DNA of 23,126 nt. Origin: a virus. A program made the translations under genes and the position numbers. The notes beneath the pieces were generated by a model. It saw only the letters and a list, made by a program, of their open reading frames with translations. It searched no databases and had not been told where the DNA came from. Each line of letters begins with the position of its first letter. Position 1 is the first letter of the stretch. Where the stretch lies: positions 1-23,126 of the IMG/VR virus record IMGVR_UViG_3300039149_000014; one strand, 5' to 3'. Below, piece by piece: positions 1 to 20,903 of this stretch.

Positions 1-121
1 GTATTATAGCAGCACGCACGCCGATGAGCAAGGCCCGCAACTCAGGAGAGACTTGCTGGTCAGTTAACTGCTCCCGCGCGGCCGGCCGGGACAGGTGCTC
101 CTCCAGGCGGCGGACAGTCAC
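1..121 (-). CDS. Small unknown protein, 3' end cut by window edge
   Basis: A GTG codon at 121-119 overlaps the TGA stop of the preceding Cys-rich gene (GTGA). A GGGAGG ribosome binding site lies 6 nt upstream. The frame then stays open for 40 codons to the window edge, giving a charged, helix-prone start (VTVRRLEEHLSRPAAREQL). No family is recognised. The coupling to the upstream gene and good binding site support a real gene, but only its N-terminus is visible. Confidence 0.5.
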   Translation of the reverse strand, partial: MTVRRLEEHLSRPAAREQLTDQQVSPELRALLIGVRAAII

Positions 122-306
122 GCCCGCCCTCCCTTGGCCCACAGCCGTCTGGCGCGTTCCCTCCAGGTAGGCCGTGGCGGTGGATTGCATCGTGGGCACT
201 TGATGACACCGCGCCCATGACATCGCGCGCACCCCTTGCCCAGCCTGCCGCCGTCACAGCCAACACATGGCAACTCCCCCTTGCCTCCACAACTGACACA
301 GATCAC
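118..306 (-). CDS. DnaJ-type zinc-finger-like Cys-rich protein
   Basis: This 62-residue protein carries four closely spaced Cys pairs: CVSCGGKG, CVGCDGG, CARCHGRG and CPRC. The spacing matches the CxxCxGxG repeats of the DnaJ central zinc-binding domain, so it probably folds around two zinc ions. It lacks a J domain and has a basic tail (RERARRLW). The GTG start has a run of G 5 nt upstream and follows the methyltransferase stop by one base. Free-standing CxxCxGxG proteins are common in phages. The role is unknown; protein or nucleic-acid binding is a guess. Confidence 0.65.
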   Translation of the reverse strand: MICVSCGGKGELPCVGCDGGRLGKGCARCHGRGVIKCPRCNPPPRPTWRERARRLWAKGGRA

Positions 307-307
307 G

Positions 308-955
308 TCATCCCCCCTTGACGAACTCCGCGCACCAGACGGTCAGGTTGGCGCCCTCGATGCCATACTCACCGACCAGTTCGCAGCCGTCCAGCCAGCC
401 TCTAATCTGCGCCCTTGTCAATATCCGATCTCGGTTGAACAGGGTCACCGGCTTATCGGCTATGGGCACGCTCAACAGCAGGCGCCCGCCGGGTGCCAGC
501 ACCCGCTGCAACTCCCGGCATGCCTTGACGCTGCCCTGCGGGTCTATCGCATCGCCGTACCTGCCCAGGCCGACGTGCTCTATCGTGCTCAGGCACATGA
601 CGGCGGGCGCGCTGCCGTCCGCGTAATCCAGGGCGGTCACGTCACCCTTGACCGGCGTCAGGCCGGGGATCTGGACGGTCAGCGGCCGCAGGTCCATGGC
701 TGTGATCGGGATGAACTGCGCCAGCAGCGCCACCAGCCAGGCATCGCTGCCCACGTCCAGCACCCAGGCCGGCCTCAGTGTCAGCAGCCGCCGGAATGCC
801 CACACGTCCTGGTGCAGCCCCCACGGGTCGGCCTGCGTGGTCGGCGTGCGCTCATCCCGCGGCGCGATCGGCAGGATGCGCTCGGCGGGGTCGGCCAGGG
901 CACGGTATCGCTCCAGGTCGTCGGCGTACCAGGCGGGGACTAGTCGGGTGGTCAT
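308..955 (-). CDS. DUF268-like SAM-dependent methyltransferase
   Basis: This 215-residue protein is probably a class I SAM-dependent methyltransferase. Motif I is degenerate but in place (VLDVGSDAWLVALLAQF, about residues 65-81). It is followed by an acidic strand end (AMDLRPL, near 86-92), a CLSTIEHVGLGRYGD segment at about 121-135 and LAPGGRLLLSVP at about 153-164. The STIEHVGLGRYGD block and the final GCELVGEYGI stretch resemble the DUF268 family, often found in polysaccharide or sugar clusters. It overlaps the upstream gene by ATGA. It is one of two methyltransferase domains in the sugar block, so sugar or glycan methylation is the likely job; the substrate is not known. Confidence 0.75.
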   Translation of the reverse strand: MTTRLVPAWYADDLERYRALADPAERILPIAPRDERTPTTQADPWGLHQDVWAFRRLLTLRPAWVLDVGSDAWLVALLAQFIPITAMDLRPLTVQIPGLTPVKGDVTALDYADGSAPAVMCLSTIEHVGLGRYGDAIDPQGSVKACRELQRVLAPGGRLLLSVPIADKPVTLFNRDRILTRAQIRGWLDGCELVGEYGIEGANLTVWCAEFVKGG

Positions 956-1338
956 GTCTCGTCTGGTGGCTCGGAGCCGGTTATCAGCGCCCGGGCCAGT
1001 TCCTGCGTTATCTGGCCGACTACCCAGCGGACCATCTTGTCCCTGTCCGCCCCACCATCCCGGACCAGATGCGCAGTGACCACAGTCATGCTCGTGAGGC
1101 TGTGACCACCGGCAAGGTCCAGCGAGGCGCGGATCTCAAACCGCTGCAGCCGGTCCTTGATTTGCTTGCCCTGCACTACCATGTCTATCGGCGCGCCCCT
1201 CCAGACATCCCACTGGAGCACAGCGCCATGGTGCTTGCGCAGGTGGTCCTCCAGCGCCTTGGCCTCTCTGCCATGCTCCTGTACGGCCCGCACCAGCGCA
1301 CCACCAAAGAGCAATTCAACCTCTGTCCACGCTGTCAT
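952..1338 (-). CDS. Conserved-looking hypothetical protein
   Basis: A 128-residue protein beginning MTAWTEVELLFGG is chosen because this ATG sits behind GAGGGAGGGGGAG, the same ribosome-binding cassette as the gene starting at 1699. The frame remains open upstream to a GTG at 1419, which would add 27 residues and also has a possible GAGG site, so the start is uncertain. The sequence reads as a mixed alpha/beta soluble protein without signal peptide, membrane segment or recognisable motif. Its stop overlaps the downstream methyltransferase start. No function is assigned. Confidence 0.65.
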   Translation of the reverse strand: MTAWTEVELLFGGALVRAVQEHGREAKALEDHLRKHHGAVLQWDVWRGAPIDMVVQGKQIKDRLQRFEIRASLDLAGGHSLTSMTVVTAHLVRDGGADRDKMVRWVVGQITQELARALITGSEPPDET

Positions 1339-1426
1339 CTCCCCCTCCCTCACGATGCCCGGGCATATCGCGTCGGCCTGGGCCATCCAATCGGCGGGCC
1401 ACTGCTCCCCCTTGCTCACGTCTGCC

Positions 1427-1699
1427 TCATTTCCTCCTCAGCGTCAGGCCCCTCGAGCACTCGCCCTGTATCTTCGGATTTGGCGTGATGGGCGGCGGCT
1501 CGGGTAGCCCATCTGGATACTCATAGACCACCCAGAAGTGCTCGCCCGACTTGCTTTCATAGCAGGGGTCACCCCCATAGCAATCTAAGCAATCACCGCA
1601 AGCATCACAGAAGTCCTCGCCACATTCTGGCTCGGCTTCCTCTGTGCGCCGAGATCGCTCATGGCCCTGCTTGTCTATGGTACAGATGTACTTCTTCAT
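1427..1699 (-). CDS. Small acidic Cys-rich hypothetical protein
   Basis: A 90-residue protein starting MKKYICTIDKQG behind a GAGGGAGGGGGAG site immediately before the ATG. Residues about 27-48 hold seven cysteines in the spacing CGEDFCDACGDCLDC followed by CYGGDPC-type positions, suggesting a small metal-binding knuckle. The C-terminal half is proline-rich (PDGLPEPPPITPNP). The upstream glycosyltransferase stops 11 bases before this start. The family is not recognised. Confidence 0.6.
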   Translation of the reverse strand: MKKYICTIDKQGHERSRRTEEAEPECGEDFCDACGDCLDCYGGDPCYESKSGEHFWVVYEYPDGLPEPPPITPNPKIQGECSRGLTLRRK

Positions 1700-1710
1700 C
1701 TCCCCCTCCC

Positions 1711-2697
1711 TCACATCACCCCCAGCGCCCCGAACGCATCCTCAAACCGCCGGCGCCACGTGTGCTCACGCCTGGCCCGCTCCGCGCCCCTGCGCCGGAT
1801 GGCCTCTGCCTCCTGCGGATGGGCCAGGTAGTGCCTGCACTTGTCGGCCAGGTCGGGCACGTCCTTCCAGGTCACGATCTCCTGCCCTATCTCGTAGTGC
1901 GCCGCCAACTCTGGGTTCGCCTGGGCCAGGTAGAACGCCCCGCACATGGGCGCCTCAAAGTCCCTGGCCTTCAGGCTCAGCAGTGCCGGGTCCGCCGTCT
2001 CGCTGATGCCGATGGTGATGGCAGCCCGGTTCATGGCCTCTACCATGGCCTCGGTGCCCAGTGGGCCATTCGGCCAGCCCTGGCCGTAGGGCCGCACGTC
2101 TACGCCGGCGTCCTGTAGGCCCTGCACAATCTCGGCCCGCCGCCCATAGTTCTTGCCGACGAACAGGACGCTAGGATTGCGCGAGCACTCCCGCGGCGCG
2201 AACACGCCCGGGTTGGCGCCGGCCGGCAGGTAGATCGCCCGCGCGCCATGCTCAGCGTACCACTCCAGCGCCGTCGGGTCGCTGGTCCAGCACAGGTCGA
2301 AGGCGCTGGCGATGTCCACCATGCCAGCGAAGCCGGTCGGCTCCAGGGCACTGTAGCGGTGCGTCTTGTCATCCAGCGTCATGTTGAGTGTCGGGATGCC
2401 CAGGTGCTCACGGATGGCGGTGATGTAGGCGGGGAACACAAGGCGCCCGCACAGGTAGCCGTAGAACACATCCAGCGGCGTCCGCTTATGGGTCTCCTGC
2501 ACGCGCTCCAGCAAGACCAGATTCATTGCGGCCTTGCCACGTCTGCCCCAATCCGACCGATGCCAATCTCCCGCATACTGGTCGTACCCGTCCTCCGCAT
2601 GCCAGTCGTACCACGTCAAGTCGCCCAACTCGCGCAGCGCCGGGGCCAGGTTGTGCCGCTCCCAGTTGAAGTGGCGGAAGGCGGCGAAGATGTTCAT
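1711..2697 (-). CDS. CgeB-like glycosyltransferase
   Basis: A 328-residue cytosolic protein with the layout of GT-B glycosyltransferases of the CgeB/YkvP type. The N-terminal half starts MNIFAAFRHFNWERHNLAPAL, a Rossmann-like entry. The C-terminal half has VLFVGKNYGRRAEIVQGL (about 177-194) and a glycosyl-transferase group 1 (PF13524-like) signature: KARDFEAPMCGAFYLAQ (about 243-259), then NPELAAHYEIGQEIVTWKD and a helical tail ending HTWRRRFEDAF. The FEAPMCG segment corresponds to the donor-nucleotide binding region. The start overlaps the upstream stop (ATGA). It is one of three related glycosyltransferases in the block; donor and acceptor cannot be read from sequence. Confidence 0.85.
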   Translation of the reverse strand: MNIFAAFRHFNWERHNLAPALRELGDLTWYDWHAEDGYDQYAGDWHRSDWGRRGKAAMNLVLLERVQETHKRTPLDVFYGYLCGRLVFPAYITAIREHLGIPTLNMTLDDKTHRYSALEPTGFAGMVDIASAFDLCWTSDPTALEWYAEHGARAIYLPAGANPGVFAPRECSRNPSVLFVGKNYGRRAEIVQGLQDAGVDVRPYGQGWPNGPLGTEAMVEAMNRAAITIGISETADPALLSLKARDFEAPMCGAFYLAQANPELAAHYEIGQEIVTWKDVPDLADKCRHYLAHPQEAEAIRRRGAERARREHTWRRRFEDAFGALGVM

Positions 2698-3155
2698 GGC
2701 GTACCCCTTGGCGGTGCTGGCCCCCAGTCTGTCCAGTACGACGGCTCCGGGCTGTATGAACTATCGTCATTGGGAAGCCACACATAGCCATTCCACTCAC
2801 GCTGCTCCATATAGTCATTCCATTGGCAACCCTCGGCATCACGCCATTTGCTGTAGTACACATAATAGCGCCCATAGTCAGGCGGGTCTTCATCGGGCCA
2901 CTTGCGCCAAGTCGGTTCAGCACAGACCGTGAAGACAGGCCGCACCCGGGGCAAGTACTCATTTGGAGGCGTCTCCGGCCAGTCTGCCGAATCCAGTACC
3001 ACTGCCACAGTTCGCCCATGCTGTATTTGTAGGTCTACCAGATGCGCATCTTCCGGCAACGCCTCGCTCACCATCAGTGAGCGCATCCACTCACCCGGCG
3101 CCTTGCACAACGCGATTATCCACTCTGGTGCCACTTCCAATACGCGCCTGCCCAT
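2694..3155 (-). CDS. Hypothetical protein with DUF551-like C-terminal region
   Basis: A 153-residue protein. Residues 1 to about 75 form an unrecognised region (MGRRVLEVAPEWIIALCKAP). The rest is Trp-rich, with TWRKWPDEDPPDYGRYYVYY, an EWNGYVWLP segment and a closing SYWTDWGPAPP. This layout, a Trp start, a central 'W + tail' and a terminal YW..PLPxPP-like motif, recalls DUF551 phage proteins such as the one at 5067-5270. The ATG follows the strong cassette GAGGAGGGAGGGAG. Its first 65 bases overlap the 3' end of the dehydrogenase gene. Function is unknown. Confidence 0.6.
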   Translation of the reverse strand: MGRRVLEVAPEWIIALCKAPGEWMRSLMVSEALPEDAHLVDLQIQHGRTVAVVLDSADWPETPPNEYLPRVRPVFTVCAEPTWRKWPDEDPPDYGRYYVYYSKWRDAEGCQWNDYMEQREWNGYVWLPNDDSSYSPEPSYWTDWGPAPPRGTP

Positions 3156-3933
3156 CTCCCTCCCTCCTCAGTCTCCCATTAGCCGCCGCCATGCCGTCCA
3201 GCAATTCCGCCTGGCCGGCCAGCCAGTGCCGGATGGCGTCGGTGTCCTTCGGGAAGCACGCGCCGCCGTAGCCGCGCCCGCCATCCTTCCACACGTCCCA
3301 GTAGGCATTGGCGATGGGCTGGCCGATGTAGCCCAGGCTCGGCATGGCCCGCTTCAGCGCCCCAAAGTCGGCACCTGTCCGCTGCGCCATGTCATACAGC
3401 AGATTGGCGAATGTGACCTGTAGCGCGCCGTGGACATTGTGCGCATACTTGATGAGTTCGGCGGTGGTGCGGTCCACGTAGACGACCTGCATCGCCTTGG
3501 GCAGCAGGCCACGCCAGGTATCGGCCCACTCGGCAGCATCGCCGCCGACGACGTGCGCCCATGGATGGCAGAAGTCCCGCCAGGCCGAGCGCGCGGTCAG
3601 GAACTCGGGCCAGTGGTAGACGCGCCACTCGGGATGCTCCTGGGCGATGCGCTCGCAGGTGCCGGGCAGGACGGTCGAACGGATGACGACGGCATGCGGC
3701 ACCTTGGCCCACGATGCGATTAGTTCTATCACGTTCTCCAGGGCCGTCTGGTCCTGGCCGTCTGGTCCTGTCGGTGTAGGCAGGCACAGGAATACCCAAT
3801 CGGGCGTCTGCCAGTAGCTGCCGTCCCGCCGGTCCAGCGATATGCCCGCCAACTCCAGCGGCGTCCTCTCCTTCAGCCACCGATACAGTTGGCTCCCGAC
3901 CGTGCCGGTGTGGCCGTAGACTGTGACGCGCAT
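3091..3933 (-). CDS. UDP-glucose/GDP-mannose dehydrogenase-like enzyme, short form
   Basis: This 280-residue protein resembles nucleotide-sugar 6-dehydrogenases, which oxidise a sugar C6 alcohol to an acid using NAD. It has the NAD-binding loop GHTGTVGSQL (7-16), WVFLCLPTPTG (46-56), RSTVLPGT (85-92), the catalytic ELIKYAHN block with Lys162 and Asn166, and GGACFPKD with the nucleophile Cys226. All key residues are present. It is much shorter than typical family members (about 400-450 residues) and lacks the C-terminal nucleotide-binding domain, so activity is uncertain. GGAGG lies 8 nt before the ATG. Its last 22 codons overlap the next gene, an unusually long overlap here, suggesting a shifted 3' end. 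The epimerase nearby points to a GDP-mannose-type substrate. Confidence 0.82.
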   Translation of the reverse strand: MRVTVYGHTGTVGSQLYRWLKERTPLELAGISLDRRDGSYWQTPDWVFLCLPTPTGPDGQDQTALENVIELIASWAKVPHAVVIRSTVLPGTCERIAQEHPEWRVYHWPEFLTARSAWRDFCHPWAHVVGGDAAEWADTWRGLLPKAMQVVYVDRTTAELIKYAHNVHGALQVTFANLLYDMAQRTGADFGALKRAMPSLGYIGQPIANAYWDVWKDGGRGYGGACFPKDTDAIRHWLAGQAELLDGMAAANGRLRREGDGQARIGSGTRVDNRVVQGAG

Positions 3934-3934
3934 C

Positions 3935-4132
3935 TCAGCCACCTCCCAAGATATGCTCGCCGTGCGGCCCATCATAGACCTCGGGCTCGTCGGCCAACGC
4001 TCCGTCTATGTCCTCCCAGTCCTCTGCATTCTCCCTGATAAGCCTGCGTGCTTCCTCTGCGCTTTCAGCCATCGCGAAGGCAATCCCGCAGGTGTAGTCA
4101 CAGAATACATTATGCCACACATAGAGTTTCAT
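3935..4132 (-). CDS. Small conserved-looking hypothetical protein
   Basis: A 65-residue protein starting MKLYVWHNVFCDYTCGIAF. The ATG is coupled to the epimerase stop (ATGA at 4132-4129). The N-terminal strand plus the AESAEEARRLIRE helix give a small alpha/beta fold of the kind seen in short phage accessory proteins. The C-terminus is acidic and ends in glycines (GEHILGGG). It sits between the two nucleotide-sugar enzymes, but nothing in it suggests catalysis. Function unknown. Confidence 0.65.
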   Translation of the reverse strand: MKLYVWHNVFCDYTCGIAFAMAESAEEARRLIRENAEDWEDIDGALADEPEVYDGPHGEHILGGG

Positions 4133-5073
4133 CCTAGCACCTGCCGCTCTATCCACGGATACGTCAACGCTAGCCCCTCCTCCAGGCTCACGTTCGCCTG
4201 CCAGCCCAGCCCCTTGATGCGCTCGCTGCTGAAGTTGCGCGACCGTACGCCGACCGGGCCGTCTATGTGCTCCAGCGTTAGCCGCTTGCCGGCCACCAGC
4301 GCCACGGTGCGCGCCAACTCGTCCACAGTCACATACTCATCGCCGCCGATGTTGGCCGGCCCCTCCAGATCCGACAGCGCCAGCCGATAGATGCCGTCTA
4401 TCAGGTCGTCCACGTAGATGTAGTTACGCACGGCCCCGCCGTCGCCCCAGACCTCGATGCTGCCGCCGTCCTCGGCCTCGGCCACCTTGCGACACAGCGC
4501 CGCCGGCGCCTTCTCGCGCCCGCCCTGATAGGTGCCGAACGGCCCGTAGCAGTTCTGGAAGCGCGCGATCCTCACGGCCATGTCATGCTGCCGCCCGTAG
4601 GCCAGGGCCATGCGCTCGGCGTATAGCTTCTCCCAGCCGTATTCGTTGTCAGGCTGGGCCGGGTAGGCACCATCCTCATCCAGCGCCGGCTCGCCAGGCT
4701 CCATGTCCCGGTAGACGCAGACTGACGATGAGAAGAAGTAGCGCTTGATGCCGGCCAGGGCCGAGGCGTGCAACACGTTGGCATTGATAAGCGCGTTGTT
4801 GCGCATGATCTCGCACTCTGCCACGCTGATGTAGCCCATCCCGCCCATGTCGGCGGCCAGCTGGAACACCGCATCGAAGCCATCCGGAATGATGTCTGCC
4901 CAGGGCTGCGCCGGGCCGCGCAGGTCGGCCTGCACAAAGTCATCGGCATCGCTGGCCTTGAACTCAGGCGGATGCAGGTCGACGCCGCGCACCCACCAGC
5001 CCTCGGCCTTGAGGCGGGTCACCAGGTGCCCGCCGATGAAGCCGCCTGCGCCACAGACTATTGCGCCTAGCAT
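4129..5073 (-). CDS. GDP-mannose 3,5-epimerase (extended SDR family)
   Basis: This 314-residue enzyme would convert GDP-D-mannose to GDP-L-galactose/GDP-L-gulose. It has the NAD-binding GAGGFIGG (8-15), then AADMGGMGYI (73-82), the SSSVCVY segment with Ser and Cys119 (115-121), and the YGWEK active-site Tyr145/Lys149. The stretch RFQNCYGPFGTYQGGREKAP (171-190) and the closing GVRSRNFSSERIKGLGW match the plant GDP-mannose 3,5-epimerase pattern closely, including the cysteine acid/base. Length is close to the SDR norm. The ATG at 5073 is chosen because the preceding 28 in-frame residues lie inside the upstream gene and do not fit the Rossmann start. It overlaps the upstream gene by 7 bases. Confidence 0.88.
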   Translation of the reverse strand: MLGAIVCGAGGFIGGHLVTRLKAEGWWVRGVDLHPPEFKASDADDFVQADLRGPAQPWADIIPDGFDAVFQLAADMGGMGYISVAECEIMRNNALINANVLHASALAGIKRYFFSSSVCVYRDMEPGEPALDEDGAYPAQPDNEYGWEKLYAERMALAYGRQHDMAVRIARFQNCYGPFGTYQGGREKAPAALCRKVAEAEDGGSIEVWGDGGAVRNYIYVDDLIDGIYRLALSDLEGPANIGGDEYVTVDELARTVALVAGKRLTLEHIDGPVGVRSRNFSSERIKGLGWQANVSLEEGLALTYPWIERQVLG

Positions 5074-5270
5074 GTGCTTACCGCCCTCGGTGGTTCTGGC
5101 AGTGGCCGCCAGTAGTCTACCAGCGGCATGTGCGGCCCAATCTTGTATTCCTGCCACTCCTCGCCAGTCCAGTAGGCCATATCATACGGCTTATGCGCCG
5201 AGCAATGCACCCAAAAGTGCCCTCGTTTGGGCGGGTTCTCTCTAGGCCACTCGTGCCAACCATCCCTCAC
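5067..5270 (-). CDS. DUF551-like small protein
   Basis: A 67-residue, Trp-rich protein with the DUF551 layout: an opening WHEWPRENPPKRGHFWVH, a middle MAYWTGEEWQEY and the diagnostic end VDYWRPLPEPP. DUF551 proteins are common in phages and prophages; their function is unknown. A GTG start at 5270 overlaps the glycosyltransferase stop. The 153-residue protein at 2694-3155 appears to contain a longer relative, so the sugar block carries two. Confidence 0.75.
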   Translation of the reverse strand: MRDGWHEWPRENPPKRGHFWVHCSAHKPYDMAYWTGEEWQEYKIGPHMPLVDYWRPLPEPPRAVSTC

Positions 5271-6118
5271 AATCCCATCACCTCCAACATCTGCTGCGCC
5301 CGGTGGCGGTACGTGTGGCGGGCCAGGACGGCAGCGCGGCCCCGTGCGCCCCAGAAGTCCAGCGCCTCCGGGGGCGATGCCAGTACCTCGTCAATGACCT
5401 TCAGCGCCTCCAGGTTGGCCTGGTAGAAGTCCATCGGCGGCGGCTCTCCGAACAGTTCTGGTATGCCCGCCTCTGGCACCCAGTCCGTGACCAGCGGGCG
5501 CCCCGAGCACAGCGCCTCGAACACGCGCATGTTCAGATCGTCCGACGTCGACACGTTGAACACCACGCGCCCCTTGGCGTGGGCGATAGCCATGTCCTGC
5601 AGATAGGCCCCCTTGTACACGCCCAGGTCGTAGTGCTCGGCTAGCATCGCCAGCAGGCGCCGCCTGCGCTCGTATAGCGGGCTGCCGGGGTAGGTGTGGC
5701 CGCAGAACACTACGTCGTGCTCGGGCTCGATGCCCTCCGGCGGCGTGTGGATGTCCGGGTCGCAGGCCACGGGCAGCCAAGTGGCGGGCCGGTCGAAGCG
5801 GTCCACGTAGGCGCGCTGGGCGACGAACACATGATTGAAGTGTTGCGCGAACTCGCGGTGCCAGGAATGCTGGCTATGGCTGTCCAGGAACCAGGCGGCC
5901 TTGCGTTTTATAGGCAGTATAAATGGCCCCCGCCATTGGGGTCGCCCACCACCCGCTTCAACCCATATCACCGCATCACAGTGCCAGCAATCGCCCACTG
6001 CCTCCGGCTGCCCCGGCCCGAAGCAGCGCACCTCATGCCCCAGCGCCCGCAGCGCCTTGACCAGATAGTTGGCCGTCGTGTACGGACTGTAGCGGTAGGC
6101 GCACAGGATGTTAGCCAT
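5267..6118 (-). CDS. CgeB-like glycosyltransferase
   Basis: A 283-residue GT-B type glycosyltransferase. The N-terminus MANILCAYRYSPYTTANYLVKALRAL is truncated here to its key MANILCAYRYSPYTTANYL strand-helix. A middle block holds HDVVFCGHTYPGSPLYERR (about 134-152). The C-terminal donor region has NVSTSDDLNMRVFEALCSGR (about 195-214) followed by PLVTDWVPE, the family's Glu-containing loop. No signal peptide or membrane segment is seen, so it acts in the cytosol. It overlaps the upstream GT-methyltransferase gene by 8 bases. Of the three glycosyltransferases here, this has the most standard C-terminal motif. Confidence 0.87.
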   Translation of the reverse strand: MANILCAYRYSPYTTANYLVKALRALGHEVRCFGPGQPEAVGDCWHCDAVIWVEAGGGRPQWRGPFILPIKRKAAWFLDSHSQHSWHREFAQHFNHVFVAQRAYVDRFDRPATWLPVACDPDIHTPPEGIEPEHDVVFCGHTYPGSPLYERRRRLLAMLAEHYDLGVYKGAYLQDMAIAHAKGRVVFNVSTSDDLNMRVFEALCSGRPLVTDWVPEAGIPELFGEPPPMDFYQANLEALKVIDEVLASPPEALDFWGARGRAAVLARHTYRHRAQQMLEVMGL

Positions 6119-7277
6119 CGCTCACCGCCGGCCTCATCAGCACGTCGATGAACCGCTCCAGCGGATGCCCCGGCGGGTATGCCCGGCAGTACACGATGTG
6201 CCAGGGCCGGATGCCGTAGCCCTGGCCGTACTGCTGCCAGCGCTGGTGGTCCGCGTTGAAGTAGTCGAAGGTATCCGGCACCCACGCCCGCACGTGCGTT
6301 GGGTCGGCCCAGGCCACGGTCGCCCCGCGCTCGGCATTGGGCACGCGGATGTGCATGCGGCCGTTGGGCAACAGCGCCTGGTGACAGTCGTTCAACAGCG
6401 GTATTAGGTTCTTAATGTGCTCCAGCAGGTTGTCGGCTACGATGACATGGGAGCGCTTGGGCCGGACAAAGAACGGCAGGCCGGACTCCAGGTCTTCTTC
6501 TGCAACACGCGCACCGCCCCGCTTGTCCACGCCTATCATGCCCGGCCTGGGCTTCTCACCGCATCCCAGGTCCAGCATCACGCGCTCTGTTGGCACCGCG
6601 TCCATCAGCACCGCCGCACACTCCGCGAACGTCGGCACCTGCTCGCCCCGGACGGCCAGGATGTCGTAGTGACGCGGGTTGTTCATGCCCCACTTCTGCA
6701 TGTCGGCGTGTGTGTCGTTGGGCAGCACCCTCGCTTTGGCGTACAACTCATTCAGGTGGTCGTGCGGATAATACTCGCCATAGGTGCTGTTGGGCCGCTT
6801 TAGGTGTTCCCTCCAGCCCTCGCCCCAGACGTTGAGTTCCATATCCTCAGGCACGTCCAGTGTACGGCCGGGTCGCCAGTTGCCGACAAAGATAGCATCA
6901 AATGTCTGTTCCACGTCCATGGGCACCATGTCCGACGCGCCGGGCAGGTGCTTGGCGTCTATGCCCTGGCCCCGCAGGTGCTCCGCGAACTTGTAGCTCT
7001 CCGCGAACACCGCATCGTACTCCCAGCACCCCTGGGGCGTCACGGCATCCGGGTGGCCGATCACCCACAGGATGTTGTAGGTCCACTCGGGCAGGTGCTG
7101 GACTGCCGCGCCGTGGCAGTTGATGACGACCTCAGCCTCCAGCGCGTTCTCAGTGATGCTGTGGCCCAGCGCCTTGATGGCCTGCCCCAAGCTCTCCTTG
7201 AACCAGTAATCGCCCCAGCGCTTGCGCCGCTCCGGGTCGGCCTCTGCATCGCTGGCGGCGACGATGTAGACGTTCAT
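6111..7277 (-). CDS. Fusion: CgeB-like glycosyltransferase half + SAM methyltransferase
   Basis: A 388-residue two-domain protein starting MNVYIVAASDAEADPE. Residues 1-225 look like a CgeB-type glycosyltransferase (WGDYWFKESLGQAIKALGH, DAIFVGNWRPGR, WGEGWREHL) up to the donor-site region NNPRHYDILAVRGEQVPTF (199-217). The usual remaining C-terminal part is missing. From about 230 a class I methyltransferase follows: VMLDLGCGEKPRPG (233-246, motif I), IGVDKRGG, VIVADNLLEHIKN (278-290) and LLPNGRMHIRVP. GAGGAGAGAGGG precedes the ATG. The fusion suggests one protein that transfers and methylates a sugar, or a methyltransferase with a recruited sugar-binding domain; the second is my weaker guess. 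Confidence 0.82.
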   Translation of the reverse strand: MNVYIVAASDAEADPERRKRWGDYWFKESLGQAIKALGHSITENALEAEVVINCHGAAVQHLPEWTYNILWVIGHPDAVTPQGCWEYDAVFAESYKFAEHLRGQGIDAKHLPGASDMVPMDVEQTFDAIFVGNWRPGRTLDVPEDMELNVWGEGWREHLKRPNSTYGEYYPHDHLNELYAKARVLPNDTHADMQKWGMNNPRHYDILAVRGEQVPTFAECAAVLMDAVPTERVMLDLGCGEKPRPGMIGVDKRGGARVAEEDLESGLPFFVRPKRSHVIVADNLLEHIKNLIPLLNDCHQALLPNGRMHIRVPNAERGATVAWADPTHVRAWVPDTFDYFNADHQRWQQYGQGYGIRPWHIVYCRAYPPGHPLERFIDVLMRPAVSDG

Positions 7278-7297
7278 CCCTCTCTCCTCGTCTGTTG

Positions 7298-7438
7298 CTA
7301 TACCAAGTCGCTCAGACGCGCCTCGCGCATCTCGCGTTCGTAGTCCGCCTGCGCCAGCAGCGCTATGACCAACTCCTCCAGTGTTGTGATAGGCCGCCCA
7401 TATAGGTAGCCATAGAATGACTGATGCTGTTCCGCCAT
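7298..7438 (-). CDS. Very small hypothetical protein (46 aa)
   Basis: An ATG at 7438-7436 stands directly behind GAGGAGAGAGGGAG, the same ribosome-binding cassette used by neighbours, and the upstream gene stops just before it. The frame runs 46 codons to TAG at 7300-7298. The peptide starts MAEQHQSFYGYLYGRPITTL, followed by a helical, charged end (ALLAQADYEREMREARLSDLV). No family is recognised. It fills what would otherwise be a 170-base gap. Confidence 0.6.
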   Translation of the reverse strand: MAEQHQSFYGYLYGRPITTLEELVIALLAQADYEREMREARLSDLV

Positions 7439-7450
7439 CTCCCTCTCTCC

Positions 7451-7648
7451 TCACTTCTGCCTCAGCAACCGCATCCGCAGTATGCCCGTGGCCCGCGCTT
7501 TGGCCGGGTCGCCGTACAGGATGCGCTCCTCTTCCTCTGCCCGCACAGCCTCTGCGTGCGGCCGCATGCCCTCCACAATCCGCGCCCTGACCCAGGCTTC
7601 CAGGTCGAATGTGTCCCACTCCTCCGGTTCGGTTGGCAGTCTGTCCAT
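7451..7648 (-). CDS. Small helical hypothetical protein
   Basis: A 65-residue, acidic-then-basic protein starting MDRLPTEPEEWDTFDLEAWV, with AGGAGGAGC directly before the ATG. The remainder is predicted helical (RARIVEGMRPHAEAVRAEEE) and ends in a basic tail, GILRMRLLRQK. In size and position it could be a small virion or chaperone-like protein, but no family is recognised. The frame stays open upstream to 7717, but the ribosome binding site marks 7648 as the start. Confidence 0.6.
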   Translation of the reverse strand: MDRLPTEPEEWDTFDLEAWVRARIVEGMRPHAEAVRAEEEERILYGDPAKARATGILRMRLLRQK

Positions 7649-7658
7649 GCTCCTCCTC

Positions 7659-7910
7659 CTAGACAATGCCCATAGCCCGGTTGAGAGCAACTTCATCCGG
7701 TTCAACTGACATGTCAAACATCACAAGAACCCGATTGTCAGCCAAAACGATGTATCCTCGGTGCCGACTATGGCCGCAGCAGCAACCGTGAGTCCAAATG
7801 CTGCCATTGTTGAGCGCCACAATCATATCTATTATGCATTCATCTATTTTGGTGGGAGCCAGCGAACCATCGGGCTGAGGCAGGCTGATGGTCACCCTAC
7901 TATCGCACAT
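7659..7910 (-). CDS. Conserved-type phage hypothetical protein with CCCGH motif
   Basis: An 83-residue protein with the layout 'VALNNG.IWTHGCCCGHSRHRGYIVLADNRVL'. The Cys/His cluster CCCGH followed by a 'GYIVLADNRVLVMFD' strand is a pattern I recognise from unnamed phage proteins (often written xCCGHGxxxGxIxLxDGRxL). The clustered Cys and His could bind a metal. The ATG at 7910 lies about 35 bases after a perfect hairpin. No function is assigned. Confidence 0.65.
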   Translation of the reverse strand: MCDSRVTISLPQPDGSLAPTKIDECIIDMIVALNNGSIWTHGCCCGHSRHRGYIVLADNRVLVMFDMSVEPDEVALNRAMGIV

Positions 7911-8004: not shown

Positions 8005-8466
8005 CTAGCCTACGCTGTCAGCAAAGGCTATTGCCATGCGCTTGGCATCATCAAGAGTGTCCGCCGTAAAGCCTACGGGTACGCTTAGGTCTGCCTCTGG
8101 ATGCTCCGCCACGTACTCCGGTATACTACCCGATTGGGTGCATAGCGAACCCTCTTGTGCCACGTCGCCGATGCCGTAACCGTAGATTGCCCGGTGAGAC
8201 CAGCCATACCACTTCTGTTCTCTTTCACAGAAGCCGATGGAGCATACGTTATGGTCGGGCGCAGCCTTCTCCGGGCGGATGCCCCGCTTGACTACCAGAT
8301 AACGGGCCATCTTGGGATCACCCAGGTAGTCACCCTCTGGAGTGTAGGCGCAGCGCATATCCATAACCGCGCCTTCCGGCATGCCATGCTCCTCTCCACT
8401 GATGCGCTCGGTGCGCACCTCGTAGCCGGCCTTGTAGTGCAGAACCTTCACGACTTCCCTTGCCAT
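8005..8466 (-). CDS. Conserved-type phage hypothetical protein (GWSHRAI motif)
   Basis: A 153-residue protein starting MAREVVKVLHYKAGYEVR behind GGAGGAGCAGGA. The middle contains CSIGFCEREQKWYGWSHRAI followed by YGYGIGDVAQEGS, and the end reads LPVGFTADTLDDAKRMAIAFADS-like (here SVPVGFTADTLDDAKRMAIA). I recognise the 'WYGWSHRAIYGFGIGD' and 'TLDDAKRMAIAFADS' pieces from unnamed phage proteins. No catalytic motif is evident. The frame remains open upstream to 8517, but the binding site sets the start at 8466. Confidence 0.68.
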   Translation of the reverse strand: MAREVVKVLHYKAGYEVRTERISGEEHGMPEGAVMDMRCAYTPEGDYLGDPKMARYLVVKRGIRPEKAAPDHNVCSIGFCEREQKWYGWSHRAIYGYGIGDVAQEGSLCTQSGSIPEYVAEHPEADLSVPVGFTADTLDDAKRMAIAFADSVG

Positions 8467-8510
8467 TCCTGCTCCTCCTTTTATACATGGAAACCGCCCT
8501 CGCGGCATCC

Positions 8511-8969
8511 TCACCACTTGCTCGTTATGTCCTCCAACAGCCGCTCCGCTACCCCTGACCGCTCTACCTTCCTGCCCGCCTCCTCATCGGTGACCCAGCC
8601 CGTCGCTGCATGGCCCGGCTGCTGCTTGCCCTTCTCCTGCACGTAGGGCGCGTAGGTAACGCGCGTCCCGACCGCCGCATCATGCTCGCCCCGGTGCTCA
8701 GTGGCCCACGATGGCCCCAGGCGCTGGGAGAACGGGTCGCTGTTGCGCACGTATGGCCCCATCCCCCGGCGCTGGGCCAGCACGAAGGTACGCTGTTTGC
8801 GGCTGGCCCACTTGAATGGCAACTTGACCGGGCCGGGGTACTGCGCGATCTCGGCGCGCACCTCCTCTGCCACGCCGCGGGTGAGGGCGCGGATGATGGG
8901 GATGGAGCCCAGGCCGAGCTTGTCGACCAGTTGCTCCAGGCCCTTGACGTCGATGGAGACGTTAGGCAT
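8511..8969 (-). CDS. HK97 gp10-like / minor structural protein
   Basis: A 152-residue protein: N-terminal MPNVSIDVKGLEQLVDKLG and a helix RALTRGVAEEVRAEIAQY lead to a basic middle KWASRKQRTFVLAQRRGMGP and then GTRVTYAPYVQEKGKQQPGH. The 'VTYAPYVQ' turn after a two-strand region is the hallmark of gp10-like neck/tail-completion proteins, where YAPYVE.G is typical. It directly follows the head genes, overlapping the upstream small gene by 8 bases. Such proteins usually follow the major capsid gene, which is not seen here. The family call is moderately sure. Confidence 0.55.
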   Translation of the reverse strand: MPNVSIDVKGLEQLVDKLGLGSIPIIRALTRGVAEEVRAEIAQYPGPVKLPFKWASRKQRTFVLAQRRGMGPYVRNSDPFSQRLGPSWATEHRGEHDAAVGTRVTYAPYVQEKGKQQPGHAATGWVTDEEAGRKVERSGVAERLLEDITSKW

Positions 8970-9183
8970 TGTCTGCCTCTATCGGCTCGAAGCGGATGCC
9001 ATGGTCGCCCCGATATGGCTTGCGATGGTCGTGCTCACCCATCCATATTGCCATCGGAATCCCGTCCGGAAAGGCACGGCACATCCGCTCGCCAGGAACG
9101 GTCCACCAGCGACAGCCAGTACACACTGGACTCAGTACAGGAACCGTAAGACTGCTATCATCTAGTGACAGGGATTCTACCAT
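8962..9183 (-). CDS. Small conserved phage protein (Cys-rich, FPDGIP motif)
   Basis: A 73-residue protein with CTGCRWWTVPGERMCRAFPD-type features and the run FPDGIPMAIWMGEHDHRKPY followed by RGDHGIRFEPI. The pattern C..C......C.AFPDGIP..I..GE.DH..P..GD.GI.FEP is familiar from small phage proteins encoded just after the MuF gene. A small metal site from the three Cys and later His is possible. It overlaps the MuF gene by 7 bases. Function is unknown. Confidence 0.72.
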   Translation of the reverse strand: MVESLSLDDSSLTVPVLSPVCTGCRWWTVPGERMCRAFPDGIPMAIWMGEHDHRKPYRGDHGIRFEPIEADNA

Positions 9184-10304
9184 TCTGCCCTCTCGTAAAT
9201 TATGCTTTTGTCTGGCACTGCCTGATAGTTCTCTACTAGGCGCCGCAGCACGTTGTGCCAGTGGGCGTTGTTGGCTTCTGTTAGCGTGATTTCGCCTGTT
9301 AGGACCGCTGCGCGCTCCTCAGTCGCCAGTGCCTTATGTATCTGCTTATACTCTCGCTTTAGCTGCGGCCAATCTGAGTATGTGAAGCCGTCCATGCGCA
9401 GACGATGACGGTGGCGCACCCCGTCCAATATGCCGACTGCCCTGGATTCCAGATGCCCATAGTAGAGGTGACACTGTATATCCCCATCAGAGAATGTGTA
9501 GCCGTTCGGGTGATTGTGAGTGAAGATATTGCCCCCTGAAATCCTCTCGGCCTCCTGGCGAGTAATGCTCACGCGGGTACGGGAGCCCTTCTTGTTCAGT
9601 AGCACCTTCCCATCAGGAGTAACCACATAACCATACTCAACCCCGTGCCTTGGTATCGCCGCTATCACTTCCTCGCGCTCGTTCATCATTGGTTCCCACG
9701 GACCACTGGGTAGCCTTGACCCCACGGGGAACTGCGTTTCCTGCGTCCCTGCCGCCTCCGCCCGCCGCCTCAGCACCGTCCAGCATCGGCAACGCGGATG
9801 CCGGGGCGGCCCATCACTCGCCTCACCCCATTCATCTTCCGGCTTGCCGTCCAATGGCGAGCATAGGTCGCATACGTCTGAGCCACTAGTCTGCCAGTGC
9901 AGCGTCATCTCCAGCCCAGCTCGCTGCAACTCCGCCTGCACCATGCGGTTGCCCTCGGCGTAGGCCCGCGTCGTCTCGGTCACGGCGATGGCCTGCGCCC
10001 GGCTCTGGCCGAACGCCCCTGTGAGCATCTGCCGCAGTTGGCCGATGGTCATACCGGGCGTCTCGGTAAACGACCGCACCTTGTCGCCGACCAGCCTGGC
10101 CGTGTTGTCGGTGATGCCGCGTATCAGGTCGTAGCCATAGCGTCCTGCCCAGTCGGCGGCCTCCCTGGAGATCACGGCCTCATCCCACACCACCGGCACG
10201 CGGGTGACGATCTCCTTCATTATGGCCTTGCCCGTGCCGGCCAGGGACGCGATGCTGTCCAGCGCCATGCGCTCTATCTCCATGCGCAGGTCGCCCAGCA
10301 TCAA
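9177..10304 (-). CDS. Phage head morphogenesis (MuF-like) protein with HNHP/JAB-like C-terminal domain
   Basis: The visible part is 375 residues. The MuF core spans about 1-185 and contains QAIAVTETTRAYAEGNRMVQ and the SDVCDLCSPLDGK...HPRCRC cysteine/histidine motif typical of the family. From about 215 a second domain carries GGNIFTHNHPNGYTFSDGD (residues about 267-285), close to the HxHP-x(n)-S-x-x-D metal site of RadC/JAB-type proteins, and some MuF proteins carry C-terminal effector domains. The first usable codon is TTG at 10304, without a good binding site. Coding-like sequence continues upstream in the same frame to about 10512 without ATG, GTG or TTG, so the true N-terminus is probably longer (CTG at 10421, or frameshift from the portal gene). 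Confidence 0.82.
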   Translation of the reverse strand: MMLGDLRMEIERMALDSIASLAGTGKAIMKEIVTRVPVVWDEAVISREAADWAGRYGYDLIRGITDNTARLVGDKVRSFTETPGMTIGQLRQMLTGAFGQSRAQAIAVTETTRAYAEGNRMVQAELQRAGLEMTLHWQTSGSDVCDLCSPLDGKPEDEWGEASDGPPRHPRCRCWTVLRRRAEAAGTQETQFPVGSRLPSGPWEPMMNEREEVIAAIPRHGVEYGYVVTPDGKVLLNKKGSRTRVSITRQEAERISGGNIFTHNHPNGYTFSDGDIQCHLYYGHLESRAVGILDGVRHRHRLRMDGFTYSDWPQLKREYKQIHKALATEERAAVLTGEITLTEANNAHWHNVLRRLVENYQAVPDKSIIYERAEW

Positions 10305-10473: not shown

Positions 10474-11931
10474 TCACGGATACGGGATGGCTTCGAGGCG
10501 AAAGGGACCGCGAAACGCGGCTTTCACCTCCTCGTCTGTCCCGGCCTGGGCCAGCCGGCCGGCGATGACCTGCTGCTGCTCATCGGTGAGCACGTCGCTG
10601 TCAAAGTCCACCGCTGCGCCCTTGCCGCTGCTCAGGCTCTTCAGGGCCTTGCGCCGCCAGCGGCGGATCTCCTCGCGCTGCTCCTGCTGCTGTGGCGGCT
10701 GGCCGGGCGGCGTCTGCTGCGGCTGCCGGGCCGCGAACGCCTGACGCTGCCGCTCTGCCGCCTTCGCCTTGTCCTCCTCGAGCCGCTGCCGGAACTGATT
10801 GTAGGTCATCTCACCGGGCAGGTCCATGCCGAGCATCTGCATTGCGACATCGAGCGGCACGCCTGATGCCGTGAGTTGCTGGAGGGCCACGGCCCGCTCG
10901 CCCTCGTCCTCCTGGAAGATAGAAAGCGCCTGCCAGTCCAGCACCAGGCGGAGGCTGATGGGGTTGAACAACTGCCGGTTGAGCCACGCCTGGATACGGA
11001 TGGCCTCGGGTACGACTGTCTCCTCGTAGAACGCCTGATGGTGTTCTTGGGCAGTCGCGAAGTTTGCCGCGTCGGCAATCATCGTCTCCGGCACGCCAGC
11101 GGCGACGGCGATCTGGCTGCGTATGGCCGCCAGCAGGTCGGGCATGGCTAGCTGCTCGGTCGGGAAGCCGATGACCTCAGGGTGGACACTGGCCCGGATG
11201 GCAACCGTCTCAAACGCCTTCTTGACGCCCTGCACCAGCCGCCGCCACCACGCTTCCAGCCGGTCCAACTCCTCCTGCTTAGGGTTGCCCTCTACGCTTA
11301 GCAGCACGGCGGGGATGGCGCCCCGGTCGAAGAACGACTCCGCGAACTGATTCATGGCCTGCGCCACGCCGGCCTCAGTCAGCACCTTCGATACCCAGCC
11401 CTTGCCCGGCCCAACCTCATCCTTCAGGTTGGGGTGCCAGTAGTAGAGCACGTCCTTGACTGGCTTCAGTGTCTCCTTCGGGCGGTTCGGCAACTGGCGC
11501 TCGAAATAGTCCAGGCCCTTGGTGGCCGAGTACTTGGGCGTGATGGTGGACGGCGCCAGCCAACGGTATCCCTTGTCCTTGACGAGGTTCTCCTCGCGCA
11601 GCCAATAGGCCCTACCGTAGAGCTGCACCGAGCCCTCGGTCATCCAGAGTATATCGGCCAGGCTCTCGGCGAACTCCCATTCCTGCTCCTGCGGCGCCTT
11701 GCCACCGCGCGGCTTGCCCGCCTTGTACACCTTCGCAGGGATAGCTGACAGGGCGTTGCAGCGCAGTTCTATGCAGCGGGACACCCACGACACGGCCTGG
11801 TACGCGCCGTGCTCGTCCAGCTCGCCATCGTCCTGCCCGCCGAACATGGTCTTCCAGTCCAGCGCGCTCATGCTCACGGCGCCGCTCTTGAGGGCATGCG
11901 ACTGCGCGACGTATACGAAGGACTTATTCAT
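10474..11931 (-). CDS. Phage portal protein
   Basis: This 485-residue protein is a portal of the HK97/SPP1-like type: the dodecameric ring at the capsid vertex through which DNA passes and to which terminase docks. Supporting blocks are AVSWVSRCIELRCNALSAIP (about 46-65), EGSVQLYGRAYWLREE, LYYWHPNLKDEVG and IAVAAGVPETMIADAANFAT (about 280-299), where the GVP.....  step is typical. The C-terminal third is a Gln/Pro-rich linker (QPQQTPPGQPPQQQEQ) followed by a helical region, and the protein ends RLEAIPYP. It lies 6 bases after TerL, and the frame at its stop shifts +1 into MuF-like coding sequence. Confidence 0.9.
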   Translation of the reverse strand: MNKSFVYVAQSHALKSGAVSMSALDWKTMFGGQDDGELDEHGAYQAVSWVSRCIELRCNALSAIPAKVYKAGKPRGGKAPQEQEWEFAESLADILWMTEGSVQLYGRAYWLREENLVKDKGYRWLAPSTITPKYSATKGLDYFERQLPNRPKETLKPVKDVLYYWHPNLKDEVGPGKGWVSKVLTEAGVAQAMNQFAESFFDRGAIPAVLLSVEGNPKQEELDRLEAWWRRLVQGVKKAFETVAIRASVHPEVIGFPTEQLAMPDLLAAIRSQIAVAAGVPETMIADAANFATAQEHHQAFYEETVVPEAIRIQAWLNRQLFNPISLRLVLDWQALSIFQEDEGERAVALQQLTASGVPLDVAMQMLGMDLPGEMTYNQFRQRLEEDKAKAAERQRQAFAARQPQQTPPGQPPQQQEQREEIRRWRRKALKSLSSGKGAAVDFDSDVLTDEQQQVIAGRLAQAGTDEEVKAAFRGPFRLEAIPYP

Positions 11932-11937
11932 TGCTCA

Positions 11938-13419
11938 TCAGTCACCCCACAGGAGAAGCGGGCCAGCGCCGGGCAGGTTGGCTAGCAGCAGGGATTCGCC
12001 TTTGTCGGGGCTTCGCCCCAGCCGTTTCTTGATTGCTTCCTTCTCCTCGATCTGCACGCCCGCGGTCGTCAGTTTGTAGTGTGCAGCACAGAGGTCAGCC
12101 ACAATCTCGTTGCCTGGCGGCAATGCAACGTCGTCGCCACGCTCGGGGTCCAGCGCGTCCCGCATCCGCCAGTAGTACTCGGCGCGCAGGTTCCGCATCT
12201 TCAACTTGCCACTCCGGTCGCGGTAGTCCGAACCACTCGCTGCATTGATCGGCTGCACAGCATTATACATCGTCACCAGCGAATCGTATGCTGAGGCGCC
12301 ATAGCCTATCACGTCGATGTTCACGTAGCCCGGCTCCTCATCGCCCAGCGCCTGCTTCACCAGCCCTGCCGTGGTAGGCCCGTCGCTGGTCGCCACGCCG
12401 GGCCAGGCCACAATCTCGTCAAACCAGTTGTCGTATCGCTTCGCCATCGCCGTGTTGTCTCGCCCCCCGCGCGCCGGGTCAATACCTGCTGCCGTCAGCG
12501 GCACCTGTGGACGCTCTCTTTCCAGCCATCGCCGCTGCGCCAGCCTCACCCATTCGGTAGGTATCACCTGCCAGGGGTCGGCGTCCACAGAGGCGCGAAA
12601 GTCGCCATACAAGAGTTGTGAACGCAGCGGCTCCGGCAGCGCCTGGAGCACACTCCTGTAGCGGTTGTCCTGCACGTAGAACGGATTGTCGTCCAGCAGC
12701 GCCGGAATGAACGTCCGTGAGCGCGGATAGATGGCCTCTCCCTTGTGCTCAATCGGCGTGTTGTCGGTGTACTCTCTCTCCTGGCCGTCAATCGTCGCAT
12801 ACCAGCGCAACTCCCCAGGCTGGGCCGGGTTGGGGTGCAGATCGTCCAGCCATGCCGCCCAGCGCCGTATCACCCAGCTGCCCTGCTCGTCTATCGGCGG
12901 GTTGCCTGTCGCTATGACCCGCACCCGCTGCTGCGGGTCTGTGGTGCGGTTCCAGCCGCAGATGAACTCGTATTGCGACTCCGTGAACTCCGGTATCTCG
13001 TCGAACGCCTTCAGGTCGTGCGGCCGGCCCTGCCAGTCTGTCTTGTTCTCCTCATACTGCACCGCGCCAAACTCGACGGTACGGCCGCCGGGCAGCGTCC
13101 AGATGCGGTCGGCCCTGTTCTCCTGGCCGTAGTCGCCGATCAACTCTCGGGCTCGGCGGATGACCTCACGCAGGTTCGGATAGACCCGCCGAAAGATGAC
13201 GCTGTGAGTGTGGCACTCTACCGCCATGCCGATGAGCAGGTCCGTCTTGCCACCGCCGGCAGCCCCGCCGTAGAACAACTCGTCGGCGCGAGTCAGGAAC
13301 GCCCTCCATTGCGGCTTACTCTGCGGCACCCATAGCGCCGTCCGAGTCTGGACCCGCGCCAGATATGCCTTCTCGGACGGTAGCAATGAGTGCAGATATT
13401 GCTCGGTTGTAATGCTCAT
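11938..13419 (-). CDS. terL: Terminase large subunit (ATPase and nuclease)
   Basis: This 493-residue packaging motor has all expected motifs. Walker A is GGAAGGGKT (51-59), Walker B LKAFDE (136-141) and the coupling motif ATGNP (170-174). The RNase H-like nuclease domain begins GIDPARGGRDNTA (312-324), with likely metal-binding Asp314 and Asp321, then VNIDVIGYG (366-374) and a later conserved Asp in the NEIVADLCAAH region. ATG at 13419 is chosen although the binding site is weak; the frame opens farther upstream. It overlaps the TerS gene by about 100 bases. It cuts concatemers and pumps DNA through the portal. Confidence 0.95.
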   Translation of the reverse strand: MSITTEQYLHSLLPSEKAYLARVQTRTALWVPQSKPQWRAFLTRADELFYGGAAGGGKTDLLIGMAVECHTHSVIFRRVYPNLREVIRRARELIGDYGQENRADRIWTLPGGRTVEFGAVQYEENKTDWQGRPHDLKAFDEIPEFTESQYEFICGWNRTTDPQQRVRVIATGNPPIDEQGSWVIRRWAAWLDDLHPNPAQPGELRWYATIDGQEREYTDNTPIEHKGEAIYPRSRTFIPALLDDNPFYVQDNRYRSVLQALPEPLRSQLLYGDFRASVDADPWQVIPTEWVRLAQRRWLERERPQVPLTAAGIDPARGGRDNTAMAKRYDNWFDEIVAWPGVATSDGPTTAGLVKQALGDEEPGYVNIDVIGYGASAYDSLVTMYNAVQPINAASGSDYRDRSGKLKMRNLRAEYYWRMRDALDPERGDDVALPPGNEIVADLCAAHYKLTTAGVQIEEKEAIKKRLGRSPDKGESLLLANLPGAGPLLLWGD

Positions 13420-13888
13420 CTTGAACTCGTATCGGCCCGCCGCCTGTGCCGCTATGCTCGTGTCTGTCGGGCGCATCAACTCCAATGATCTTGCACCGCC
13501 GCTCGATGCACCACTGCACGCCCTGGAGGAAGCGCGGATCCCCGGCCTGCCCCTTGCGCTGCGTGGCAACCTCGTATCGCTTGCCGTCCTTCACGTCTAT
13601 GGCCTTGGTGGCCTCAGTCTCGGCGTCCTCCTGGCTGCGCTGCCAGGCGGCCCAGTAGGTGCGCTCCAGGTGGTCTATCTTGGCGAGTTCCCGCGCCTTG
13701 GCCTCGTTGAAGTCCATCAGGGCCGACCGCAGCCACTCGCCCTGCAACGCCTTCAGGTCGCGGCTCACCGTGGACTGAGATATGCCAACCTGCTCGGCAA
13801 TCTCGGCCTGGAGGCGCCCGCGCAGATACAGGTCGGCAATCTGCCGCCTGTGTGCCGCTATCTGCGCGCTATCTCTAGGTCTGCCCAT
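13316..13888 (-). CDS. terS: Terminase small subunit (HTH DNA-recognition protein)
   Basis: A 190-residue protein with an N-terminal helix-turn-helix: LRGRLQAEIAEQVGISQSTV then SRDLKALQGEWLR (about residues 23-54). A central helical region (AKARELAKIDHLERTYWAAW) looks like the oligomerisation core, and the C-terminal third is low-complexity. Position just before TerL, with an overlapping 3' end, and the HTH-plus-coil layout are what TerS genes show. It would recognise the packaging site and recruit TerL. Transcription-factor function is a weaker alternative, because the HTH also resembles Mor/sigma-like DNA-binding folds. Confidence 0.8.
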   Translation of the reverse strand: MGRPRDSAQIAAHRRQIADLYLRGRLQAEIAEQVGISQSTVSRDLKALQGEWLRSALMDFNEAKARELAKIDHLERTYWAAWQRSQEDAETEATKAIDVKDGKRYEVATQRKGQAGDPRFLQGVQWCIERRCKIIGVDAPDRHEHSGTGGGPIRVQDEHYNRAISALIATVREGISGAGPDSDGAMGAAE

Positions 13889-20194: not shown

Positions 20195-20903
20195 CGTCAC
20201 CCTCCTCTACTCTCCTCACCATCACGAACCACGCCCAGCCGTCATCCCCCCAGGGATGGCGCGGGTGGTAGTGGCCCCAGGCCTCTGCCATCGCCCGCTG
20301 CGCCATCGTGGCTATCAGGCCGTCCAGGTCTGCCCCTGGGGCCACCCAGGCCGGCAGATGGCGCACGACGTTGACGCCAGCGGCCTCTACCTGCTCCGGC
20401 TTGATGCCCTGCCAGCGAGCCGCCTTCACATGCTCGACCTCGACGGTGGCGCGGCTGGCCCAGCGGGGCATGTGGGTGGCCGATGTCCAGGGGCCTCTGT
20501 AGTCGTCATTCGTGGCCCGATGGATGGGAACGTACTCACTCTCGTTGCCCATGTGGATGGGATAGCCCTCCAGGTCGGGGTCGCCCGCGTCCATGGCCAT
20601 CTCATGGCTGGCGCCCTCGTATATCGGATGCTCACAAACCCAGTAGGCCCAGCATTCCCGCACCCACCGGCGTTCGCCAGGCTTGCCGTAGGGCGAATAC
20701 ACATCACAGTCCGCAATGCGGCTGCCATCTGTATCATAGAAGGCGGCATAGACGTTGCCTCGCTTGTGGTCCTCTAGCACCCTGGCAGAGGCGATCTCGC
20801 TAACGATAGCCTCAGGCTGCTTCGCCATAGGCCGCACCAGCAGCACGCGCCCCCGCTCCAGCAGCGCCCGGACCTCGTGGTCGTGTAGTATGATGGCCTT
20901 CAT
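20187..20903 (-). CDS. ASCH-like phage protein, paralogue 2
   Basis: A 238-residue protein starting MKAIILHDHEVRALLERGRV, with GGGAG 7 bases before the ATG, which is ATGA-coupled to the radical SAM gene. It shares the paralogue 1 layout: VYSPYGKPGERRWVRECWAY, THMPRWASRATVEVEHVKAA, and an aromatic end (WGDDGWAWFVMVRRVEEG). It lacks the Cys-rich insert of paralogue 1. Such phage proteins are related to ASCH/PUA-like folds and are of unproven function. An upstream in-frame ATG at 20930 is rejected because it lacks a binding site. Confidence 0.78.
   Translation of the reverse strand: MKAIILHDHEVRALLERGRVLLVRPMAKQPEAIVSEIASARVLEDHKRGNVYAAFYDTDGSRIADCDVYSPYGKPGERRWVRECWAYWVCEHPIYEGASHEMAMDAGDPDLEGYPIHMGNESEYVPIHRATNDDYRGPWTSATHMPRWASRATVEVEHVKAARWQGIKPEQVEAAGVNVVRHLPAWVAPGADLDGLIATMAQRAMAEAWGHYHPRHPWGDDGWAWFVMVRRVEEGDDG

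Follow-up and report, generated by a model that had tools for sequence, protein, structure and literature searches.

The window analyzed here, an IMG/VR virus record taken whole (23,126 bases), carries a cassette of nucleotide-sugar, glycosyltransferase, and methyltransferase genes that is inserted at a single point of a compact phage head module. We propose, with a probability of roughly 0.55, that this cassette acts late to glycosylate the virion, making a glycan that is methylated and contains an L-sugar. The proposal builds on enzyme families, conserved residues, gene order, the insertion site, selection, and gene loss, all of which were observed directly in the window and its relatives.

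The minus strand is the coding strand for all genes concerned (Table 1). In reading order, the small-terminase-like, large terminase, portal, and MuF genes are followed by a small protein, a gp10/Neck1-like protein, Tad6, and two small proteins. The second part of the order is GTMT, GT2, a DUF551-like protein, GME, a small protein, a short dehydrogenase-like protein, another small protein, GT3, two small proteins, and MT1. The initial annotation had assigned a sugar and glycosyltransferase block to positions 1–7910, directly after the portal and MuF genes. Family matches bear out the block itself, but its enzymes are confined to 308–7277; the block does follow the portal and MuF genes, but a gp10-like neck gene and the Tad6 gene intervene. 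From the portal to the small ORF past MT1, 15 of the 18 junctions overlap or are at most 7 nt apart, the exceptions being portal–MuF (169 nt), Tad6–g7659 (94 nt), and g7451–GTMT (173 nt). The enzyme block and the head genes have similar G+C contents (0.648 and 0.639, respectively). Promoter and terminator scans gave results at chance level, and no repeats resembling mobile-element ends were found. The enzyme block extends to the left end of the window, and no capsid gene was seen within its 23,126 bases.

Table 1. Features of the head operon and the inserted cassette in the window.
Feature	Position	Strand	Evidence or remark
Portal	10474-11931	-	Family/profile match
MuF-like protein	9177-10304	-	Family/profile match
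gp10/Neck1-like protein, upstream border of insertion	8511..8969	-	phrog_5 E 9e-4
Tad6	8005-8517	-	Pfam match E 2e-55; inside head operon
GTMT, putative glycosyltransferase-methyltransferase fusion	6111..7277	-	Start is the ATG at 7277
GT2, CgeB-type glycosyltransferase	5267..6118	-	PF13524 E 3e-19
Small DUF551-like protein	5067..5270	-	PF04448 19.9 bits, below cut-off 22
GME, GDP-mannose 3,5-epimerase-like SDR, 314 aa	4129..5073	-	2c59 E 6e-79
Small protein	3935..4156	-	phrog_34232 E 3e-7
Short UDP-glucose/GDP-mannose dehydrogenase-like protein	3091..3933	-	Pfam UDPG_MGDP_dh E 7e-13
Small protein	2694..3155	-	No family match above cut-off
GT3, CgeB-type glycosyltransferase	1711..2697	-	PF13524 E 2e-26
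Two small proteins	1427-1714 and 952-1419	-	No family match
MT1, methyltransferase	308..955	-	DUF268 E 1e-11, Methyltransf_11 E 5e-7
Small cysteine-rich (CxxC) ORF immediately after MT1	118-306	-	

A DNA comparison of window positions 1–7910 with isolated phages gave no match. The large terminase (11938–13569, minus strand) is closest to those of Limnohabitans, Acidovorax, and Bordetella BPP-1 phages (43–47%), and the large terminases of the cassette-bearing relatives, where present, do not match it; the window genome therefore looks mosaic. Tad6 is, according to Pfam, a type I Thoeris inhibitor family. Among isolated phages it had one partial match only (Phage NCTB), and a literature search on it found nothing. 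A radical-SAM-like protein at 20900–21740 (minus strand) is split across two overlapping frames (21261–21740 and 20900–21307), both of which have relatives in the contigs L071 and L084.

GME matches the Arabidopsis GDP-mannose 3,5-epimerase from end to end in a phmmer search, scoring 269 bits against this enzyme (2c59) and 102 bits against GDP-L-fucose synthase. The aligned residues are Cys119, Tyr145, Lys149, Lys188, and Arg277, of which we take Cys119 and Lys188 to be the catalytic Cys and Lys pair and Tyr145 and Lys149 the Tyr-x3-Lys motif. Since these residues are conserved, it is plausible that GME supplies an L-sugar donor, as the initial annotation had suggested. Its further remark that phage-encoded epimerases of this kind are uncommon does not hold. 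GME-like proteins with 45–51% identity are present in the best 30 phage records, every one of them a cyanophage or marine-virus record, and ORF123 of cyanophage S-SCSM1 is described as a GME in PMC9602691.

Two of the three predicted CgeB-type glycosyltransferases, GT2 and GT3, are clear. The N-terminal half of GTMT is borderline, scoring 23.8 bits against PF13524 (cut-off 25) and just above the cut-off in a second scan that took in its frame neighbours. Two methyltransferase domains had also been predicted: one is MT1, and the other is the C-terminal half of GTMT, whose Methyltransf_23 score (23.0 bits, E 7e-5) lies below the cut-off of 27. An AlphaFold2 model of GTMT from 7 sequences (pLDDT 47) was too poor to confirm the fold, and the GTMT profile gave three matches to solved structures, all weak (E of 0.05 or higher); two of these structures are methyltransferases. 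From these profile matches, GTMT appears to be a divergent CgeB-type half fused to a methyltransferase half. GT3 had no match in isolated phages, and its search of cellular genomes returned 11 loci, all of distant transferases; GTMT had one partial match only among isolated phages (S-CRM01). Nothing relevant was found in the literature on CgeB in phages or viruses. The single DUF551-like protein that had been noted was recovered as one weak match, and no counterpart of it was found in the cassette-bearing relatives.

The dehydrogenase-like protein was also recognized by Pfam, including its N-domain (E 4e-12), and keeps the catalytic Cys motif and the central domain (GGACFPKD, ELIKYAHN, and PEFL). 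We rank it as dehydrogenase-like only, because it has 280 aa from its ATG, compared with 390–480 aa in three domains for its solved relatives, because the Pfam scan did not find the C-terminal UDP-binding domain, and because its score against TIGR03026 of NCBIfam (108 bits) is below the cut-off of 189.8. A viral_contigs scan with the single sequence found no relatives, and the gene was found in the window only, in none of the related contigs. The earlier suggestion of an acidic sugar finds no support beyond this short protein. Phage C48C1 carries a similarly short dehydrogenase (319 aa) paired with an epimerase near replication genes. We rejected it as a direct parallel because its epimerase shares just 27% identity with GME and resembles other SDR enzymes more closely.

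Relatives of the cassette were collected from viral_contigs. A GT3 scan gave one contig (L109), and an alignment of GTMT gave eight loci (L109–L116), of which L114 and L115 are similar and may be one virus. The window portal as a single sequence found no relatives; a portal alignment did. Five of the eight GTMT loci (L109–L113) extend well past this gene. In L109, L111, and L112, the genes GTMT, GT2, GT3, and MT1 are colinear between gp10 and the protease/capsid gene, in the order GTMT-GT2-[GME]-GT3-MT1. The cassette proteins share 44–71% identity with those of the window across this conserved order: GTMT orthologues are 53–60% identical (alignment of six relatives), and those of GT3 and MT1 in the three contigs are 63–65% and 55–57% identical, respectively. 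Upstream, gp10 is 57–59% identical in L109, L111, L112, and L113, and GTMT begins 9–12 nt past it in all four. All five extended loci have GT2, which in L110 is broken across two frames with two N bases between them. L109 and L111 also carry the epimerase gene. In L113 this gene occupies two frames close to the end of the contig, in L112 it is reduced to a remnant, and L110 lacks it together with GT3 and MT1. The L113 contig stops short of GT3 and MT1. Neither MuF nor gp10 was called in L110, where a radical-SAM gene (8734–9813) precedes GTMT in the cassette position; its protein could not be assigned to a named maturase.

Portal relatives with at least 49% identity carry at least GTMT wherever the contig passes gp10; two contigs (L131 and L132) stop before this can be judged. 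The protease/capsid gene comes after the cassette in all four contigs reaching that far, in agreement with the earlier remark that the block sits where capsid and tail genes would be expected. The insertion site was also examined in the 40 loci in which local profiles called both gp10 and the capsid gene, in order, a count that is not de-duplicated and excludes loci lacking either call, such as L110. The gap between the two genes is shorter than 700 nt and free of cassette genes in 34 loci, and in two it is filled by other ORFs over 1.3 and 1.7 kb. In the remaining four loci, which represent three contigs because L112 and L130 are the same, the gap is 4.7–5.8 kb and contains the cassette. Four further loci (L192–L195) with capsid genes 34–49% identical have a gap of 3 nt. 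Because these gaps are otherwise short, we conclude that the head module is compact and that the cassette was inserted into it at one position. The comparison with related contigs that had been proposed as a check thus revealed an insertion shared across the clade, within which genes were gained and lost, and no assembly breaks; the cassette is no assembly accident.

In L109, L111, and L112, dN/dS values of 0.09–0.18 indicate purifying selection on the five core enzymes (0.01–0.13 for portal, MuF, gp10, and capsid), and no internal stops were found in these enzymes. The epimerase behaves differently from the other enzymes. Between L109 and L111, its dS is 1.31 and that of the others 0.38–0.66, and it was apparently replaced in one of these two contigs. 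In L112, a scar at about 7046–7098 retains approximately 16 codons near its 3′ end. This outlying dS and this deletion make GME the exchangeable part of the cassette. Moreover, the full pathway is not essential, since L112 and L110 lack GME and the latter also lacks two further enzymes.

Homologues of GME were found in 27 viral loci, and several of them sit within the head or tail modules of unlike phages. The homologue is located between terminase and portal in L006, between portal/MuF and gp10 in L007, past the terminase and ahead of a cement-like gene in L004, past the capsid gene together with a CgeB-type transferase in L021, and next to a collagen-like tail-fibre gene in L018. Other homologues occur within glycan-type gene clusters, although most neighbours were judged by eye only. 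A CgeB-type transferase exceeded the Pfam cut-off in 5 of the 27 records, and a PF04860 portal was found, besides the window, in L006 and L007 only. More distant relatives also carry glycan-type genes in their late region; L081, for instance, has a transferase and methyltransferases past its capsid gene. Look-alike proteins, recognized by eye and possibly another glycan enzyme, are encoded in or near head modules of distant relatives (L173, 4777–5682; L184, 8225–9430; L196, 13281–14420); the first two had no Pfam match.

From these observations, we infer the timing, substrates, sugar, acceptor, and methylation site of the proposed glycan. The module would be late and co-transcribed, built into the head operon of an uncultivated clade of tailed phages; its place in this operon points to the late timing. 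The presence of GME suggests the donor step, and GT2, GT3, and the transferase half of GTMT may build a short glycan from epimerase-derived and host donors. The presence of two methyltransferases suggests that hydroxyl groups of the glycan would be capped with methyl groups. In the window lineage, the short dehydrogenase may provide a uronic-acid donor as well. The glycan would be attached to a virion protein synthesized in the same period, and the likeliest candidates are the capsid protein or another head or tail protein. The choice of the capsid is a guess from its adjacency and from mycobacteriophage precedent; the capsid C-termini examined showed no extension rich in Ser/Thr.

A more specific form of this proposal is a self-contained capsid-decoration operon, which would make its own rare L-sugar donor, attach an O-methylated glycan to the capsid at assembly, and swap or drop the donor gene to change the glycan. 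We regard this form as tentative and rather doubtful. If it is true, swaps of GME, the dehydrogenase, and perhaps the radical-SAM gene would amount to a fast-evolving coat, in which the donor slot varies and the rest of the coat-writing cassette is conserved.

The main rival to virion glycosylation is modification of the host envelope, in which late remodelling of the surface polysaccharide would block adsorption of competitors or the sticking of progeny to debris. It is possible, but we give it clearly less weight. The position in the head operon suggests timing rather than an acceptor, and the host surface could equally be the target of an enzyme made late; soluble enzymes could also act on cytoplasmic precursors. 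Seroconverting Gtr operons encode a membrane flippase and membrane transferases. No candidate membrane segment was found in the 14 block proteins tested (highest 19-residue hydropathy, 1.55), which argues against a Gtr-like flippase or membrane transferase in the block. That L109, L111, and L112 all have the cassette inserted between neck and capsid genes also speaks against this rival. The GME and transferase genes of a cyanophage are described as cell-wall or LPS modification genes (PMC9602691), which favours it.

It is improbable that the block is metabolic cargo in transit, lacking an acceptor of its own, or that it has partly decayed. The internal gains and losses, such as the lost epimerase of L112 and the broken GT2 of L110, would fit such cargo, but the low dN/dS and intact frames, the gene order conserved despite sequence divergence, and a base composition equal to that of the rest of the genome do not. 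Least likely is that the transferases glycosylate a modified base of hypermodified phage DNA, a target also suggested by the initial annotation: a C5-cytosine methyltransferase gene adjoins the terminase (13910–14974, minus strand) and phage SP-15, whose UDP-glucose dehydrogenase has a proposed role in providing the glucuronate on its DNA (PMC5977210), is the top-ranked phage match to the window dehydrogenase, but both genes are found in the window only (the methyltransferase in 1 of 11 records, absent from the 10 relatives tested), the block lies among head genes and not replication genes, and neither Tet_JBP (PF12851), which also gave no match over the cut-off in control genomes, nor a thymidylate-synthase-type gene (PF00303) was found in any of the 11 records, an absence that is weak evidence because none of them is rated at least 90% complete and they may be fragments.

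Each component has precedents: phages are known to carry glycan genes, to encode GMEs, and to glycosylate their own virions. As far as our searches show, the new feature is that such a cassette is conserved at one site between gp10 and the capsid gene and that its donor-making gene can be replaced. Few phage isolates are known to have glycosylated particles; a donor-plus-transferase cassette conserved at a fixed site of the head operon would be a genomic signature predicting virion glycosylation in uncultivated phages, and it would make the acceptor structural protein and coat variation testable.

Among the known systems, the plant and bacterial GDP-mannose 3,5-epimerases resemble GME over the full length and in the aligned catalytic residues, and the activity of the window protein is predicted from this likeness. 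The Gtr seroconversion operon differs in its membrane proteins, which have no counterpart in the block. Bacillus phage SP-15 likewise combines a UDP-glucose dehydrogenase (31% identity) with transferases in its DNA modification cluster, but SP-15 is assigned a hydroxymethyl-dUMP synthase, whose counterpart was not found in the window or its relatives. The cyanophages, such as S-SCSM1, share the epimerase and have transferases in the same genomes; they differ in their large genomes and in the LPS or cell-wall role described for these genes. Capsid glycosylation by phage transferases is reported for the mycobacteriophages Che8, Corndog, and Myrna in PMC12363180 and PMC11256854, which cite Freeman et al. 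2023. These phages resemble the window in encoding the transferases themselves, and their proposed acceptor is a capsid or tail protein. In contrast, the cassette genes lie between neck and capsid genes, their virion acceptor is a predicted one, and the block adds a putative donor-making epimerase and methyltransferases.
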